Source: Candidatus Geocrenenecus dongiae
GTDB lineage: Archaea > Thermoproteota > Nitrososphaeria_A > Caldarchaeales > Wolframiiraptoraceae
DNA: 33,356 nucleotides
Assembly (NCBI GenBank): GCA_023267855.1
Contig: JALNLN010000017.1
Span: 1 to 33,356 of the forward strand
Direction: 5' to 3'
The stretch's first letter is position 1; each line of letters begins with the position of its first letter. The notes below the pieces were generated by a model, which saw only the letters and a list, made by a program, of their open reading frames with translations, had not been told where the DNA came from and searched no databases. Below are positions 14,836 through 21,229 of the stretch, one piece after another. The position numbers were made by a program, and so were the translations under genes.

Positions 14836-15867
14836 TTATTGAGCTATCTTCTCTCCACAGTTTGGACAGAACTTGGCTCCTACTTGAACTTCGCTTCCAC
14901 ATTTTAAACATCTGTTAGATGCTTGGAGTGGGCTTCCACAGTTTATACAGAACTTTGCTCCCATAGGATTGATTGTCCCACATTTTTGGCAAGAAGGTCC
15001 AGAAGCTTGGAGTTGTGTTCCACAATTGCTACAGAATTTCGCCGTCTGCGGATTCTGAAAACCACATTTTGGGCAGAATATCATCGTCTGAGCTTGGGCG
15101 GCTTGAGGCTGGAATAGTGGTGGAATTATAGCTATGCCTGCTCCCATAGCAGCTCCAGAACTCTTCGATAGGCTTTCGGCAGCTTTTTGAATAGTCTCCA
15201 TTCTTAAAACTTCCGGTGCCTGGACACCTGTTCTGAGGTAGAAGATTCTATCCCTCCACTCGGGCGTCGTATCTATTCCCTCAAATTTTACGTCGATGAG
15301 CTCGAGTCCTATCTTCTTAAATGCATCGTAAAGAAGGTTCTTGGCTAGGAAGCTTGTCTCATCGAGCTTACCATATACCTCGATTAACGAGTATTGGCTT
15401 AGCGCGTCAATTAACCTCTCATTAAGGTATCCTCTCAAGAACTCTTGCAGCTTATCGGTCGTGTAGACCCCTTGACCACCCACAACTTCATTCACGAATA
15501 AGTTTGGATCTTCAATCCTGAACCAGAAGCTACCATAAAATTTGAGGGGTGCGAGTTCTCTAGTTTGACTCTGAGCACCAAATCTTCCCTGGAACTGTTT
15601 GAGGGAGACGAATACTACGGTCGCTCTGAATGGAATCTTATCGAAGCCGGATATTATGGACAGGGCTCTCGTGAGTAGCGGAAGGTTCACTGTTGTGAGA
15701 ACGTGTCTCCCAGCTCTGAAGACGTCATAAGCCTTACCATCTCTGAAGAAGACGGCCGCTTCATATTCATGGACTATCAGGTTATCTCCCCAGCTAATCT
15801 CCTCCGATGGATATCTCCAGACTATCTCTCCCTCCCTTGCCCCGATCCACTCAATTACCTTCGGCAT
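14836..15867 (-). CDS. SPFH-domain (YdjI / virion-core-like) protein with three C-terminal zinc ribbons
   Basis: The N-terminal ~240 residues match the SPFH-like YdjI family, sometimes labelled virion core protein: MPKVIEWIGAREGEIVWRYP, an EYEAAVFFRDGKAYDVFRAGRHVL strand set, TTVNLPLLTRAL, then the helical YLNERLIDALSQYSLIEV and FEGIDTTPEWRDRIF. An Ala/Gly/Gln-rich linker leads to three tandem zinc ribbons, each C-x2-C-x(11)-C-x2-C (FCPKCG..FCSNCG, SCQKCG..FCINCG, RCLKCG..FCPNCG). There is no membrane helix, so it would be peripheral. The ATG at 15867 is preferred, since family members begin MPKVIEW; an in-frame TTG lies at 15894. It is the last gene of the operon. In Bacillus the homologue YdjI works with PspA (YdjF) and the membrane proteins YdjG/YdjH. 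Confidence 0.88.
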   Translation of the reverse strand: MPKVIEWIGAREGEIVWRYPSEEISWGDNLIVHEYEAAVFFRDGKAYDVFRAGRHVLTTVNLPLLTRALSIISGFDKIPFRATVVFVSLKQFQGRFGAQSQTRELAPLKFYGSFWFRIEDPNLFVNEVVGGQGVYTTDKLQEFLRGYLNERLIDALSQYSLIEVYGKLDETSFLAKNLLYDAFKKIGLELIDVKFEGIDTTPEWRDRIFYLRTGVQAPEVLRMETIQKAAESLSKSSGAAMGAGIAIIPPLFQPQAAQAQTMIFCPKCGFQNPQTAKFCSNCGTQLQASGPSCQKCGTINPMGAKFCINCGSPLQASNRCLKCGSEVQVGAKFCPNCGEKIAQ

Positions 15868-15927
15868 TAAACCATCAACCTTGAATCTGATCAAATAATC
15901 TAATTAAGTGCTTTTAAACGTTTCTTA

Positions 15928-16461
15928 TCATTCGCTTAGCCCTCTAAGTATTTCTGTCCTTCGATCGATTATTTCTTCAAGTCTTCTCACACTTGTTAAA
16001 AGTTCTTCTACAGATTTCAGTAGATCTTCACGGGCTTCCAGTTTCTCGAATTTTCCAGCTAGCTCTTTCATATTCCTCGATTCCTCGATTAACATTAGAT
16101 CATGTTCAAGAATCTTGTCCAGTTTATCCTCTTTAACCTTCACTGCGTCAAATAATCCCGCATAGCCGGCTGGAGCTTTCTCTATCCTTACGATAATTCT
16201 ATCAAGTCTTGATAAGAATACTTCAAACTTTGGGACGTCTCTATCCTCTATCTTACCTAATTGAGCTAATTCAGTAAGCTTCATTCTAATAATGTCCTTG
16301 ACTTCCTTAAGCCTATTGGTTGCCTCCATTCTGACAAGCCTGTCGCTCTCTCTCCTAATCTCTTTCTCCTTATAACCCCTGTACCCTGGGATATAGCTTA
16401 GGATCTTTTCTGTAAGCGTCATTTCCTTCTTAACATTATCTAAATGTTTTCCTTTACTCAT
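15928..16461 (-). CDS. Short helical, coiled-coil-prone protein encoded upstream of the SPFH gene
   Basis: 177 residues, almost wholly charged amphipathic helix. A distinctive N-terminal patch, LSYIPGYRGYKEKEIRRESDRLVR, is followed by a long helix (LKEVKDIIRMKLTELA), a break with KFEVFLSRLDRIIVRIEKAPAGYAGLFDAVKVKEDKL, and a C-terminal coiled coil (EKLEAREDLLKSVEELLTSVRRL). There are no membrane segments or cysteines. The ATG at 16461 overlaps the preceding stop as ATGA and has a GGTGGAGAT ribosome site upstream; the GTG at 16476 is less likely. I recall short helical proteins with a PGYRGYKEKE patch next to SPFH genes in bacteria, but could not verify this. It occupies the place of PspA in the Bacillus operon, though it is shorter and not recognisably PspA. 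Confidence 0.7.
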   Translation of the reverse strand: MSKGKHLDNVKKEMTLTEKILSYIPGYRGYKEKEIRRESDRLVRMEATNRLKEVKDIIRMKLTELAQLGKIEDRDVPKFEVFLSRLDRIIVRIEKAPAGYAGLFDAVKVKEDKLDKILEHDLMLIEESRNMKELAGKFEKLEAREDLLKSVEELLTSVRRLEEIIDRRTEILRGLSE

Positions 16462-16781
16462 TTTCCAGATCTCCACCTAGCGATTAAACCTAATATGGCT
16501 ATCACTATAATAGCTACACCCACGATGATTACTGGATTGAACACAGTGTAGAGTGTAGAGACTAGGAACACTGCTAGCATCAGTGTCCCCCATATCGAGT
16601 AGTAGAGAGAGCTTCTCCTAGAGGCGATGCCGTAAATCAGAGTGTATGCACCTAATGGTCCGAAAATCCAAGATGGTATGTTAAAGATATTAAATTCTAA
16701 GATCCCGCTTCCATAAATTATTAATGCTAATCCAATTGACAAAGCTAAAACTATCAATGCTCCCGCTCCGTAACTAACCAT
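16458..16781 (-). CDS. Small integral membrane protein, three to four helices
   Basis: 107 residues with hydrophobic segments near 5-25 (AGALIVLALSIGLALIIYGSG), 36-50 (IFGPLGAYTLIYGIA), 58-78 (YYSIWGTLMLAVFLVSTLYTV) and 81-100 (PVIIVGVAIIVIAILGLIA), ending RWRSGK. No motif identifies a family. Its stop overlaps the start of the helical protein (ATGA), and it lies 36 nt after a zinc-ribbon membrane protein, so it is cotranscribed and translationally coupled. It is plausibly a membrane subunit of the same assembly. Confidence 0.7.
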   Translation of the reverse strand: MVSYGAGALIVLALSIGLALIIYGSGILEFNIFNIPSWIFGPLGAYTLIYGIASRRSSLYYSIWGTLMLAVFLVSTLYTVFNPVIIVGVAIIVIAILGLIARWRSGK

Positions 16782-16817
16782 CGAACTATTCCATGTCAGA
16801 TGCCTAATAAGTCTTTC

Positions 16818-17750
16818 TTATTGAAAGATCTTCCTCATATACGAAAAGATTGGTTTAGATTCTTCTCCAACCATTTTCAGCTCTGAGGATAATATCTTCT
16901 TCGTTAAACTTCTTCTAAGTAATGGTGTTGAGGAAGCGGCCGCTGGAATTATTGAAAATATGAATGGTAGTGGGCTTCCAAAGATTGATGAGATTGGTAG
17001 ACCGACCAAGAATGGTATAGCTAGAAGTAGACTACTAATAGCTATCTGTAGGGTCCGCGTTTGAATCTTGATAGGATACTCTGCGATAATTATCTTCCCA
17101 TCTACACCATCGATATACGAAGAATATCTAACACCATCGTATACATACTCTAGTTGGTAAATTGGGTAGTGGACTAGCCCTCGGAAAGCAACTTTCATCT
17201 CCTCAGTCTTCACCTCGCTAATGTTACTGCACTGCCGTCTTAACTCATTAAGCAACATATTTCGTAGAAGGTTTTCCGCATATCTTCTCGCATCTTCTTC
17301 GCTGAATTCAGGTTGATGATAATTCCCCATACTCATAATCTCTTTCCTGAAGAACCTTCTACCTCTAACTGGAAAAGGATATTCCATCAAAATATTCTTA
17401 AAATTTCGGGATGCTACGATCCCTATGTAGCGACCTTCCTCAGCCCTCGTCCATCCAGCGCTACCACACTGACCCACAGCTCTACCATAAAGATAGTAAA
17501 AGTACACTGGAATGTAGTGGAGCTGTCTCATCCTTAGAGATGATGAAGATGTTATGTCAGATGGGATTCCAAATTGCCTTCTAAGAAAATCCAGTAAAAT
17601 GGTGTATGGATCCATATCCATTAATGGGAAGTAGTAATGGTCTTCCTCAACACGTTCTCCGAAAACTAGACCACAGTAGGGACATGTAAACGTTTTTACA
17701 CTCTCAGGGAATTGGAACCTCGCACCGCAATCGGGGCATACTACCTCCAT
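16818..17750 (-). CDS. N-terminal zinc-ribbon protein with C-terminal transmembrane pair (YdjG/YdjH-like architecture)
   Basis: 310 residues. A zinc ribbon with Cys5, Cys8, Cys23 and Cys26 (VCPDCGARF..TCPYCGLVFG) is followed by a soluble middle with PLMDMDPYTILLDFLRRQFGIPSD, an aromatic YIPVYFYYLYGRAV strand and FRGLVHYPIYQLEYVYDGVRYSSYIDGVDGKI. Two hydrophobic helices lie near 232-278, then a short basic tail. The GLVHYPIYQLEYVYDG segment resembles the IPLWEV/YPxYxxxY repeats of zinc-ribbon membrane proteins such as Bacillus YdjG. The start ATG overlaps the upstream stop by 10 nt. It shares its layout with the next gene and is probably an ancient paralogue. Confidence 0.7.
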   Translation of the reverse strand: MEVVCPDCGARFQFPESVKTFTCPYCGLVFGERVEEDHYYFPLMDMDPYTILLDFLRRQFGIPSDITSSSSLRMRQLHYIPVYFYYLYGRAVGQCGSAGWTRAEEGRYIGIVASRNFKNILMEYPFPVRGRRFFRKEIMSMGNYHQPEFSEEDARRYAENLLRNMLLNELRRQCSNISEVKTEEMKVAFRGLVHYPIYQLEYVYDGVRYSSYIDGVDGKIIIAEYPIKIQTRTLQIAISSLLLAIPFLVGLPISSIFGSPLPFIFSIIPAAASSTPLLRRSLTKKILSSELKMVGEESKPIFSYMRKIFQ

Positions 17751-18718
17751 GATTTCTCAACCCTTACATCTGAAATGAATTTTTTCGCAAATCGGTACCC
17801 GAGAAATGTAATGAAGAAGAAGAGTAGTATTAAGATGGAAGTATAGTCTGAGCCATTATACGATGCTGTTGAGAAAATTATGCCTATAAGCATCCCTCCT
17901 ACGACTGAGGAAATCATCCCGGCGAGGTAGAGAAACCGTCTTCCCACAGTCATCGGCTCAGCGAAGATAAGGCTTGAACCACTCCAGCCCTCATGATAAG
18001 CAAAGTAGAGGCTCCCCCTATACTCATATATCACCTCCCAGAGTGGGAGCAGAACGAGCTTCGGCTTCTCCATATTCAAGATCTCCGCCTTGAAGAACTT
18101 TATCTCATCCGCCATGTCCTCCCACTTCTTCCTTATAAAATCTACAGCATCTTCCCGAATCATAATCGCGGCTTCATCTCTGTCAAACTCTATGTTGAGG
18201 AAGTTTAGCTTATTCGACCTCCACCAGCCCTCATCTAGATCTCGGATTCCCACGGTCTCAGCCTTATGTTTGAAATATGCATTTATCAATTCACCAACCC
18301 CAACATTCTTCATCTGCCTCCTACCAACCACGTGCATATCTAAAGCTCTTGAAAATTTCTCTTTCTTCTTAATGATCTTCACATGCTTACCATTATGCTC
18401 CTTTTTTGTATATATGACCACACCCTCGACTTCAACTCGTGAGATCCAGTAGGGGATGTACCATCCTTGAATAGACTTGATCCTTATTTTCTCAGCTATT
18501 TTCCTGAGATCGATATCCCCTCTAACCCTCCTCCAAAACTCCTCTATGATTTTACCCTCATCTACGCTGGGAACAACATAGATATCGTCTCTACTGATGA
18601 CTCTGCTCACAGAGTTAAGCCCACCACAGTATTTACAGATAGACACTATATCTTCGGGGCTCACATTCAAGCTTGAACCGCAAACCTCACACTTAAATCG
18701 AATAACCTCTTCAGACAT
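17741..18718 (-). CDS. N-terminal zinc-ribbon protein with C-terminal transmembrane pair, first gene of the SPFH operon
   Basis: 325 residues with a zinc ribbon at Cys10, Cys13, Cys28 and Cys31 (KCEVCGSSLN..ICKYCGG). The soluble middle contains GWYIPYWISRVEVEGVVIYTKKE and KPKLVLLPLWEVIYEYRGSLYFAYHEG. Two to three membrane helices lie at about 262-310 before a short basic end. The W-x-I-P-Y-W and LPLWEVIYEYRG patches are of the kind seen in zinc-ribbon membrane proteins beside SPFH genes. The ATG at 18718 follows a TATA box by about 25 nt. It heads the five-gene minus-strand unit ending at 14836. I infer a membrane receptor for the SPFH protein; no experiment on an archaeal version is known to me. 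Confidence 0.72.
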   Translation of the reverse strand: MSEEVIRFKCEVCGSSLNVSPEDIVSICKYCGGLNSVSRVISRDDIYVVPSVDEGKIIEEFWRRVRGDIDLRKIAEKIRIKSIQGWYIPYWISRVEVEGVVIYTKKEHNGKHVKIIKKKEKFSRALDMHVVGRRQMKNVGVGELINAYFKHKAETVGIRDLDEGWWRSNKLNFLNIEFDRDEAAIMIREDAVDFIRKKWEDMADEIKFFKAEILNMEKPKLVLLPLWEVIYEYRGSLYFAYHEGWSGSSLIFAEPMTVGRRFLYLAGMISSVVGGMLIGIIFSTASYNGSDYTSILILLFFFITFLGYRFAKKFISDVRVEKSWR

Positions 18719-18744: not shown

Positions 18745-18756
18745 CAGTATATATGA
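18745..18756 (-). promoter_or_regulatory. TATA box of the SPFH/zinc-ribbon operon
   Basis: GTCATATATACT on the minus strand, about 30 nt upstream of the ATG at 18718. It predicts a leader of only a few nucleotides. No other promoter-like element is obvious inside the operon, where genes overlap or are separated by at most ~60 nt. Confidence 0.55.
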
Positions 18757-19693: not shown

Positions 19694-20095
19694 TTGAATA
19701 ATATCAGGAGGGAGGCTAAAGATTGGTTTGACGGCGCTGTGGTAGATCTCGAGGAAGCACGTTCAGCATTATTAAATAGCAGAGTTAATTGGGCTTTATT
19801 TGCAGCTCATCAAGCTGTTGAGAAAGCTCTAAAAGCAGCTTTCATGGTTCTCAAGAGAGATAGACCTCCAAAGACTCATGATCTAGTTAGATTGCTCGGT
19901 GAGTTGGGCTTGGAATTATCTGAAGATTTGAAGATCGGGATATCTGAGCTTTCTCCATATTATGTCTTAGCGAGGTACCCGAATGCTGGATTGGAAAGAC
20001 CGTGGGAGAGCATTGATAAAGCTTTAGCTGAGAGACTTGTAACTGTGGCCGAAGATGTGGTGAGAATAGTTGGTAGAATCACAGGTCTTGGATAA
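19694..20095 (+). CDS. HEPN domain protein of a HEPN/MNT toxin-antitoxin-type pair
   Basis: 133 residues, all helical. The HEPN pattern is clear: REAKDWFDGAVVDLEEARSALLNS, then WALFAAHQAVEKALKAAF, then PPKTHDLVRLLGELG, and YYVLARYPNAG in the third helix. This is the archaeal COG2250-like branch. The R-x(4-6)-H ribonuclease motif of toxic HEPN proteins is not visible after RYPNAG, so catalytic activity is doubtful. The start is a TTG with GGAGGTG upstream. It overlaps the nucleotidyltransferase gene by 26 nt, which indicates coupled expression. Such pairs act as toxin-antitoxin systems in some bacteria; in archaea the role is mostly untested. Confidence 0.88.
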   Translation: MNNIRREAKDWFDGAVVDLEEARSALLNSRVNWALFAAHQAVEKALKAAFMVLKRDRPPKTHDLVRLLGELGLELSEDLKIGISELSPYYVLARYPNAGLERPWESIDKALAERLVTVAEDVVRIVGRITGLG

Positions 20096-20417
20096 GCTGG
20101 AGATTCCAGAAGGAATTAAGAAAATTCTTAGAGACTTTATTGTAAAAGCTAAGGAGAGTTTAGGAGATGTGGAGATATATCTTTTCGGAAGTTATGCTAG
20201 AGGTGATTGGCTACGTGACAGCGATATAGACCTAATAATCATATCAACATTATTCAAGGACCTTGACATGGGCAAGAGATATAGAATTGTAAGAGAACTC
20301 TTACCTACAGAAATATCCGTAGAACTACTCCTCTATACACCAGAAGAATTCGAAAGAATAAAGAAGAAAAGCATAATCCTACAAGACGTGATAGAATATT
20401 GGATCAAATTGCTATGA
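20070..20417 (+). CDS. MNT-type minimal nucleotidyltransferase, partner of the HEPN protein
   Basis: 115 residues with the polymerase-beta-like motif LFGSYARGDWLRDSDIDLII: G40-S41 and the paired aspartates D52 and D54. A third acidic position is probably the Glu in ISVELLLY. The first ~30 residues are a helix and the end is a short helical tail. TTG at 20070 is supported by GGTGA 7 nt upstream, inside the HEPN gene; a TTG at 20088 is an alternative. In studied pairs the MNT protein AMPylates the HEPN partner and so neutralises it. The active-site set looks complete here. Confidence 0.9.
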   Translation: MVESQVLDKLEIPEGIKKILRDFIVKAKESLGDVEIYLFGSYARGDWLRDSDIDLIIISTLFKDLDMGKRYRIVRELLPTEISVELLLYTPEEFERIKKKSIILQDVIEYWIKLL

Positions 20418-20607: not shown

Positions 20608-21012
20608 TTATATGAAGATTGTTCTTATATTCATTTTCTCAGCTACCTGCTTCTGTAACTGGTCGCTCGTTAAAAGTCTACCCCATCTTAATGCTTGGGA
20701 TAGGTATAGTGAATCATAGAAGGTTACATTATGTGTTAGCGCTATCTCAAAAGCTTTATCGATATAGTTCTCTTCTCTTTCCATGATGATAACTTTTGCA
20801 TCTACAAGTTTCTCAAGAGATCTATATATTTCGATGGCTAGCTCCCTATCTATTATTCTTCTAACTGCATGGTGTCTCCATATAGCGTTTAAAACTTCTT
20901 TCTTCGCATGATCAAGAGTTACAACTCCCTGATAGAGATATTTCTCTACTAAATGCCAGCCTTCTTCTCTTAGCATATACTTGACTAAAGACGATGCATC
21001 AATAACTATCAC
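20608..21012 (-). CDS. vapC: VapC-type PIN-domain ribonuclease toxin
   Basis: 134 residues with the four acidic PIN positions intact: Asp5 (MIVIDASSLVKYM), Glu39 (AKKEVLNAIW), Asp100 (TFYDSLYLSQAL) and Asp117 (LTSDQLQ). The length is typical. The gene overlaps the antitoxin by 14 nt on the same strand. VapC toxins cleave specific RNAs, often tRNA or rRNA, when freed from VapB. The pair seems functional, unlike the fused frame at the left edge of the window. Confidence 0.93.
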   Translation of the reverse strand: MIVIDASSLVKYMLREEGWHLVEKYLYQGVVTLDHAKKEVLNAIWRHHAVRRIIDRELAIEIYRSLEKLVDAKVIIMEREENYIDKAFEIALTHNVTFYDSLYLSQALRWGRLLTSDQLQKQVAEKMNIRTIFI

Positions 21013-21229
21013 GATCCTCCCTCACATAACACGTAACCGAGCCTTTAGGCATCTCAGGTAATTTCTCAATAACTTTCCTCACTTCTTCTAACACTCTGAT
21101 CTTATACATTTCGTTAACTCTAGATTCAATAAATCTTCTAACTTCCTCATTCCAATCAATAACATCTTTCAACAATTCCATTTTTTCTTTCAATTTTTTA
21201 GGAATCCGTATAGAGAATACATCACTCAT
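20999..21229 (-). CDS. vapB: VapB-type antitoxin
   Basis: 76 residues. The N-terminus SDVFSIRIPKKLKEKMELLKD has the ribbon (SIRIP) followed by a helix, as in ribbon-helix-helix DNA-binding antitoxins. The middle, WNEEVRRFIESRVNEM, is the second helix, and the C-terminus, KLPEMPKGSVTCYVREDRDSY, would wrap the toxin. The ATG at 21229 stands 5 nt from a 17-bp palindrome that is the likely autoregulatory operator, and about 27 nt from a TATA box, which implies a leaderless mRNA. Confidence 0.88.
   Translation of the reverse strand: MSDVFSIRIPKKLKEKMELLKDVIDWNEEVRRFIESRVNEMYKIRVLEEVRKVIEKLPEMPKGSVTCYVREDRDSY

Follow-up and report, generated by a model that had tools for sequence, protein, structure and literature searches.

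SPFH proteins act as membrane scaffolds in all domains of life and, to our knowledge, the working and the cargo of the soluble, YdjI-type members of this group are poorly known. In Bacillus subtilis, YdjI is soluble, depends on YdjG and YdjH for its placement at the membrane, and recruits PspA there (PMC8581546). YdjG has two zinc ribbons, a YpeB-related NTF2-like domain, and a membrane segment (Ravi et al., PMC11237479), while YdjH is a TPM-domain protein and not a zinc-ribbon protein (PMC11237479). In archaea, the Meth_adaptin ESCRT (endosomal sorting complex required for transport) loci include an SPFH-coiled-coil-zinc-ribbon protein (PMC10936438). Here we discuss a gene set in the archaeon Candidatus Geocrenenecus dongiae, located at positions 14836-18718 of a 33,356-nucleotide (nt) stretch of contig JALNLN010000017.1 (the window, meaning the whole stretch analyzed). 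Its five minus-strand genes encode, with a probability that we put at roughly 0.6, a PspA-independent membrane-scaffold module with a YdjI-type SPFH protein at its core. The central discovery is a short helical protein family that has no Pfam model and that regularly accompanies this SPFH protein. The genes are, in the order of transcription:

P0005, 17741..18718, minus strand: 325 amino acids (aa), N-terminal zinc ribbon, P0004-like middle domain, C-terminal hydrophobic pair; operon gene 1
P0004, 16818..17750, minus strand: 310 aa, N-terminal zinc ribbon, long-stranded alpha/beta middle domain, C-terminal helical hairpin
P0003, 16458..16781, minus strand: 107 aa, small multi-pass membrane protein
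P0002, 15928..16461, minus strand: 177 aa, helical protein
P0001, 14836..15867, minus strand: SPFH protein (Band_7_1) with three C-terminal zinc ribbons and without a membrane segment

The helical protein and its SPFH partner

When 84,980 species genomes were scanned with the helical family, at least 491 confirmed relatives emerged, and the best 80 of these were used. The archaea among these 80 are Bathyarchaeota, Brockarchaeota, Thermofilales, and Nezhaarchaeota, with one each from Sigynarchaeota, Micrarchaeota, and Thermoplasmatota; the bacteria are Chloroflexi, Acidobacteria, and Actinomycetota. The same families as in the window recur at 30 loci of same-phylum relatives. Gene calls follow a simple open reading frame (ORF) rule, and the loci of the relatives come from metagenome-assembled genomes. 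At 101 of 108 distinct loci, which were picked by the helical protein only, the helical gene is directly followed by the SPFH gene in the same orientation, at a spacing of mostly -4 to +50 nt. The seven exceptions are three loci with an inserted zinc-ribbon gene, two contig ends, a decayed locus in G015, and an Anaerolineae copy (L144). The SPFH and helical proteins are hence a conserved pair, usually encoded by adjacent genes. The decaying module of G015 (L043) has truncated helical and arrestin genes that abut, the intervening SPFH gene being gone.

A functional link between the two proteins is best supported by their co-occurrence. Among 61 related archaeal genomes, the SPFH gene is present in 30 of the 31 that carry the helical gene and in none of the 30 that do not, bar a C-terminal fragment in G001 (Fisher p 1e-16, uncorrected for genome relatedness). 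For 151 sampled Chloroflexota genomes the corresponding figures are 20/23 versus 3/128 when a close SPFH relative is scored (E<=1e-60, a line set after a gap in the matches had been seen, and with P values that ignore genome relatedness). The association is still strong at 1e-10 (22/23 versus 15/128). The association persists without adjacency, as 11 of the 20 Chloroflexota genomes have the two genes apart, in two cases by 5-7 kilobases (kb) and in nine by more or on other contigs. Obligate adjacency in bacteria is ruled out, since about half the Chloroflexota genomes with both genes carry them unlinked. In many Chloroflexota (L178-L184, L187) the helical gene is found beside an apparent FAD-binding, xanthine-dehydrogenase-type cluster, with the SPFH gene elsewhere in the genome.

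An earlier reading made from the letters of this DNA (the sequence-only reading) had proposed a neighborhood survey, and in this survey the linkage to the SPFH gene proved to be conserved in many genomes. The same reading had taken the set for an archaeal form. This description is too narrow, since the module also occurs in bacteria (Chloroflexota, Acidobacteria, and Actinomycetota).

The helical protein itself has no Pfam match at E<=1, and no Pfam family consistently covers its 57 aligned relatives. Its sole named relative is the Leptospira family LIMLP_15305 (NCBIfam NF047596), to which P0002 is a distant but clear homolog along its whole length, scoring 42 bits (E 8.6e-11) against a curated cut-off of 210 bits. 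The LIMLP_15305 profile detects 89 of 200 phylum genomes, none of which reaches the 210-bit cut-off, and none of 14 controls, B. subtilis included. Twelve residues are invariant across archaea and bacteria (G26, G29, Y30, E34, R37, R44, G99, Y100, K108, L114, D121, and R168), and these fall in two motifs, PGYxGYKEKExRRExDxLxR and GYxGxFDxVK. AlphaFold2 gives a confident four-helix model (pLDDT, the predicted local distance difference test, 87.7; pTM, the predicted template modeling score, 0.84), in which the longest helix has 35 residues and the long alpha1-alpha2 hairpin of ESCRT-III proteins is absent. Against the PDB the model has no fold match at E<=0.001, and no ESCRT-III entry is among its best 50 matches. 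Moreover, PspA_IM30 and Snf7 are not among the Pfam families listed for the 57 relatives. A PDB sequence search with the helical or zinc-ribbon proteins returned generic coiled-coil or ribbon matches and no relatives. Aligning P0002 with PspA_IM30 and Snf7 by hhalign gave 0.5% and 1.9%, respectively, a comparison that is uninformative as the PspA-Snf7 positive control failed too. Taken as candidates for P0002, PspA and ESCRT-III were rejected on the Pfam searches and on the best 50 fold matches. The earlier impression that the helical protein looks unrelated to PspA agrees with this, as there is no Pfam relation and no PspA in the best 50 fold matches.

The SPFH protein matches both PF13421 Band_7_1 (97.1 bits, E 1.4e-27) and PF01145 Band_7 (77.9 bits) above the Pfam cut-offs. 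It has three zinc ribbons at its C-terminus, and a search for a hydrophobic or membrane segment in it found none. Translation likely starts at the ATG at 15867 (343 aa) rather than at the TTG at 15894 chosen earlier, because homologs start with MPKVIEW.

Zinc-ribbon, small membrane, and arrestin proteins

All five ORFs were confirmed, and their packing is tight and operon-like. Genes 1 and 2 (P0005/P0004) overlap by 10 nt and genes 3 and 4 (P0003/P0002) by 4 nt (ATGA), while 36 nt separate genes 2 and 3 (P0004-P0003) and 33 nt, measured to the TTG start, genes 4 and 5 (P0002-P0001). With overlaps and gaps of -10 to +36 nt, the compact five-gene operon of the sequence-only reading is borne out. 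The same applies to the architectures that it assigned to the proteins: two with an N-terminal zinc ribbon and a C-terminal membrane pair (ribbon cysteines and a hydrophobic pair or hairpin are seen), a small membrane protein (P0003 is multi-pass), and a YdjI-type SPFH protein with three zinc ribbons (Band_7_1 match, ribbons seen). The conserved set reaches past 14836-18718 and takes in a convergent gene, P0006. Two further features are of relevance here:

P0006, 14150..14740, plus strand: arrestin-fold domain with a C-terminal zinc ribbon; convergent neighbor, outside 14836-18718
Putative archaeal TATA box (CATATATAC), 18747..18755, minus strand: 28 nt 5' of the first start codon; identified by eye

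P0004 and P0005 are paralogs whose similarity extends outside the ribbon. Residues C5, C8, C23, and C26 of P0004 are invariant across 47 homologs. P0004 ends in a helical hairpin and P0005 in two hydrophobic segments. The AlphaFold2 model of P0004 (pLDDT 91.0, pTM 0.82) has no significant fold match in the PDB. Relatives of this family lie within 5 kb on the same strand at 70 of the 108 helical-protein loci, Actinomycetota included; those in Bathyarchaeota are without the membrane part, which the Actinomycetota relatives retain.

The small membrane protein and the arrestin-zinc-ribbon protein belong to the module. The former comes in two related forms, which together occupy about 62 loci. In Bathyarchaeota its counterpart is a small membrane gene downstream of the SPFH gene (hhalign 96.9%, E 1.5e-10), and the Thermoplasmatota locus L139 encodes a four-segment protein in the same gene order as the window. 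P0006 resembles Spo0M/arrestin-domain proteins in having an Arrestin_N domain (above the Pfam cut-off) and a weak similarity to Spo0M, together with a weak Rgp1/LDB19 arrestin-type similarity. It differs from them in its added C-terminal zinc ribbon and in being found, among the 61 archaeal genomes, only in those that bear the module. Strong matches are present in 14 of the 31 helical-positive genomes, including one in the window genome, versus none of the 30 helical-negative genomes. A P0006-type gene adjoins the SPFH gene in several genera, as judged from searches with the sequence minus its ribbon, since matches obtained with the ribbon are partly zinc-ribbon artifacts. The gene at L061:7720-9183 (minus strand), which immediately precedes the helical and SPFH genes, encodes a fusion of an arrestin domain with a zinc-ribbon member of the P0004/P0005 family.

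Other genes are also found near the module. In Actinomycetota, and in part of the Chloroflexota, the helical-SPFH pair has a gene for a DUF2207 membrane protein at its side (L143, L151, L150, L136, and L188; Pfam-tested in L143, L150, and L136). The Actinomycetota locus L143 also has a baeRF family-10 release-factor-like gene ahead of the module. In Bathyarchaeota (L095 5777-7162 and similar), an FAD-dependent oxidoreductase-like gene is upstream of the module at 33 loci and a lysyl-tRNA-synthetase-like gene is downstream at 27; these recurrent neighbors possibly reflect just a shared ancestral gene order. In the window itself, two overlapping plus-strand genes at 19694-20417 look like a HEPN/nucleotidyltransferase pair, and a PIN-domain-like gene preceded by a small partner gene at 20608-21229 (minus strand) is VapBC-like, both as judged by eye.

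The Bacillus operon and the archaeal ESCRT loci

Like B. subtilis pspA-ydjGHI (PMC8581546, PMC9239133, PMC11237479), the window set is a compact operon in which a soluble SPFH protein with a zinc-ribbon C-terminus is encoded together with zinc-ribbon membrane proteins. In contrast to B. subtilis, however, the window genome (97.9% complete) has no match to PspA/IM30 (PF04012; control positive in nine genomes including B. subtilis) and none to the TPM domain of YdjH (PF04536; control positive in eight genomes including B. subtilis). Moreover, the window has a helical protein, a small membrane protein, and an arrestin protein, and the gene order differs. The sequence-only reading had stated that order and architectures match those of Bacillus and that YdjG and YdjH are both zinc-ribbon proteins. 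The match fails with the absence of PspA and TPM, the nature of YdjH, and the different order; the statement on the ribbons is correct for YdjG, which has two, and wrong for YdjH, which has a TPM domain (PMC11237479). What survives of the proposed archaeal counterpart of the Bacillus module is the YdjI-type SPFH protein with zinc-ribbon membrane proteins in a conserved operon, without the PspA and YdjH parts.

As to YdjG, its two zinc ribbons compare with one ribbon, plus a membrane pair, in each YdjG-like protein of the window. A weak PepSY/YpeB match (E 0.25) among these zinc-ribbon proteins, a lead only, agrees with the YpeB-related domain of YdjG, and P0004 and P0005 may be distant YdjG relatives. 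The overlap of the window set with the Bacillus operon consists of the YdjI part and perhaps the YdjG part. From what is seen so far, the set probably acts like the YdjGHI half, and it lies outside the PspA operon family.

Plasmids, when searched with PspA, P0001, P0004, and the zinc-ribbon protein of L143, yielded no Bacillus ydj operon, and searches of viral contigs yielded no module relatives. A mobile-element or phage origin of the module was rejected on the absence of relatives in plasmids and viral contigs. On a Paenibacillus plasmid (L164), PspA occurs in another context, with DUF350/DUF4178.

The Meth_adaptin ESCRT loci (PMC10936438) resemble the window set in that SPFH and zinc ribbon are combined in archaeal operons tied to membrane work. 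Unlike these loci, the window is without a recognized nearby Vps4 or ESCRT-III gene, and no Vps4-like or ESCRT-III family is among the recurrent module neighbors, Vps4 not having been profile-searched. The window genome encodes two Snf7/CdvB-type proteins (C9:47322-47810 and C25:40147-40443, one of them above the cut-off), while the module is on C36. ESCRT-III is therefore present independently of the module. No description of this gene set was found in the full-text literature searched, although subscription papers may hold one.

Proposed function and alternative readings

Thus far, we have focused on the composition of the set. The pair's frequent partners are the zinc-ribbon proteins and the small multi-pass membrane protein, with the arrestin-zinc-ribbon protein in a subset. 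In the PspA-independent scaffold that we favor, the SPFH protein would oligomerize at the inner face of the membrane even though it has no membrane segment. Contacts with the zinc ribbons of P0004 and P0005, together with P0003, would bring the oligomer to the membrane and hold it there; such holding by partner membrane proteins would parallel the dependence of YdjI on YdjG and YdjH in Bacillus. The helical protein would directly bind the SPFH assembly and thereby regulate or extend the scaffold, and the arrestin protein, where present, would supply this scaffold with client membrane proteins. Such a module would likely organize or protect membrane patches and their proteins without PspA; its sequences are compatible with stress protection, microdomain organization, and sorting alike.

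Several observations weigh against this model. A zinc-ribbon gene is absent near 38 of the 108 loci, several of which are cut by contig ends. In 11 Chloroflexota genomes the helical gene is apart from the SPFH gene and beside unrelated genes, and two with divergent helical copies, G265 and G357, are without an SPFH domain; the helical protein may therefore have other roles. About half of the phylum genomes are without the module, which is thus not essential.

It is also conceivable, though unlikely, that the set is a functional equivalent of PspA-YdjGHI, in which the SPFH and zinc-ribbon proteins recruit the helical protein, which takes the place of PspA and polymerizes on damaged membrane in a membrane-stress response. 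The presence of SPFH and zinc-ribbon membrane proteins of the Bacillus-operon kind, the missing PspA in the window genome, and the role of YdjI in connecting PspA to the membrane in B. subtilis (PMC8581546) all speak for such an arrangement. However, P0002 has no PspA or Snf7 match in Pfam, its helices do not exceed 35 residues and lack the long ESCRT-III hairpin, and its best 50 PDB matches hold no ESCRT-III. Moreover, PspA is encoded elsewhere in five of ten bacterial helical-gene genomes above the cut-off, and the window genome has its two Snf7-family genes elsewhere.

We consider it somewhat less probable still that the module sorts or traffics membrane proteins, with the arrestin as cargo adaptor and the SPFH protein as scaffold, in an outline like that of the SPFH-containing archaeal ESCRT loci. 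The published ESCRT loci with SPFH-zinc-ribbon proteins (PMC10936438), the confinement of the arrestin-zinc-ribbon gene to module-bearing genomes, its fusion to a zinc-ribbon protein in L061, and the weak Rgp1/LDB19 matches fit this outline. It is set back by the occurrence of the arrestin gene in just 14 of 31 module-positive genomes, by the location of the Snf7 genes on other contigs, and by the lack of an evident Vps4-like family among the recurrent neighbors, with the limit on Vps4 given above. The least probable reading is a translation- or transcription-linked regulator whose ribbons bind nucleic acid or ribosomes and are tethered to the membrane by the SPFH protein. Weak TFIIB-type ribbon matches and the baeRF gene at L143 point in this direction, but the baeRF association is confined to Actinomycetota, zinc ribbons of this type commonly bind proteins, and the operon is without a DNA-binding domain.

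Of the readings considered, the PspA-independent scaffold module is the one that we prefer. We tentatively suggest, at something short of even odds, that archaea and bacteria share a protein family dedicated to partnering SPFH proteins, of which the helical protein is the first to be recognized, and that, with the zinc-ribbon, small membrane, and arrestin proteins, it forms an undescribed PspA-independent system for membrane scaffolding or client sorting. A partner without a Pfam model that tracks the SPFH protein across archaea and bacteria provides a concrete handle on a possible second, PspA-independent SPFH system. If the arrestin link is true, arrestin-type adaptors would be joined with SPFH scaffolds in archaea, the group in which the origins of eukaryotic membrane sorting are sought.

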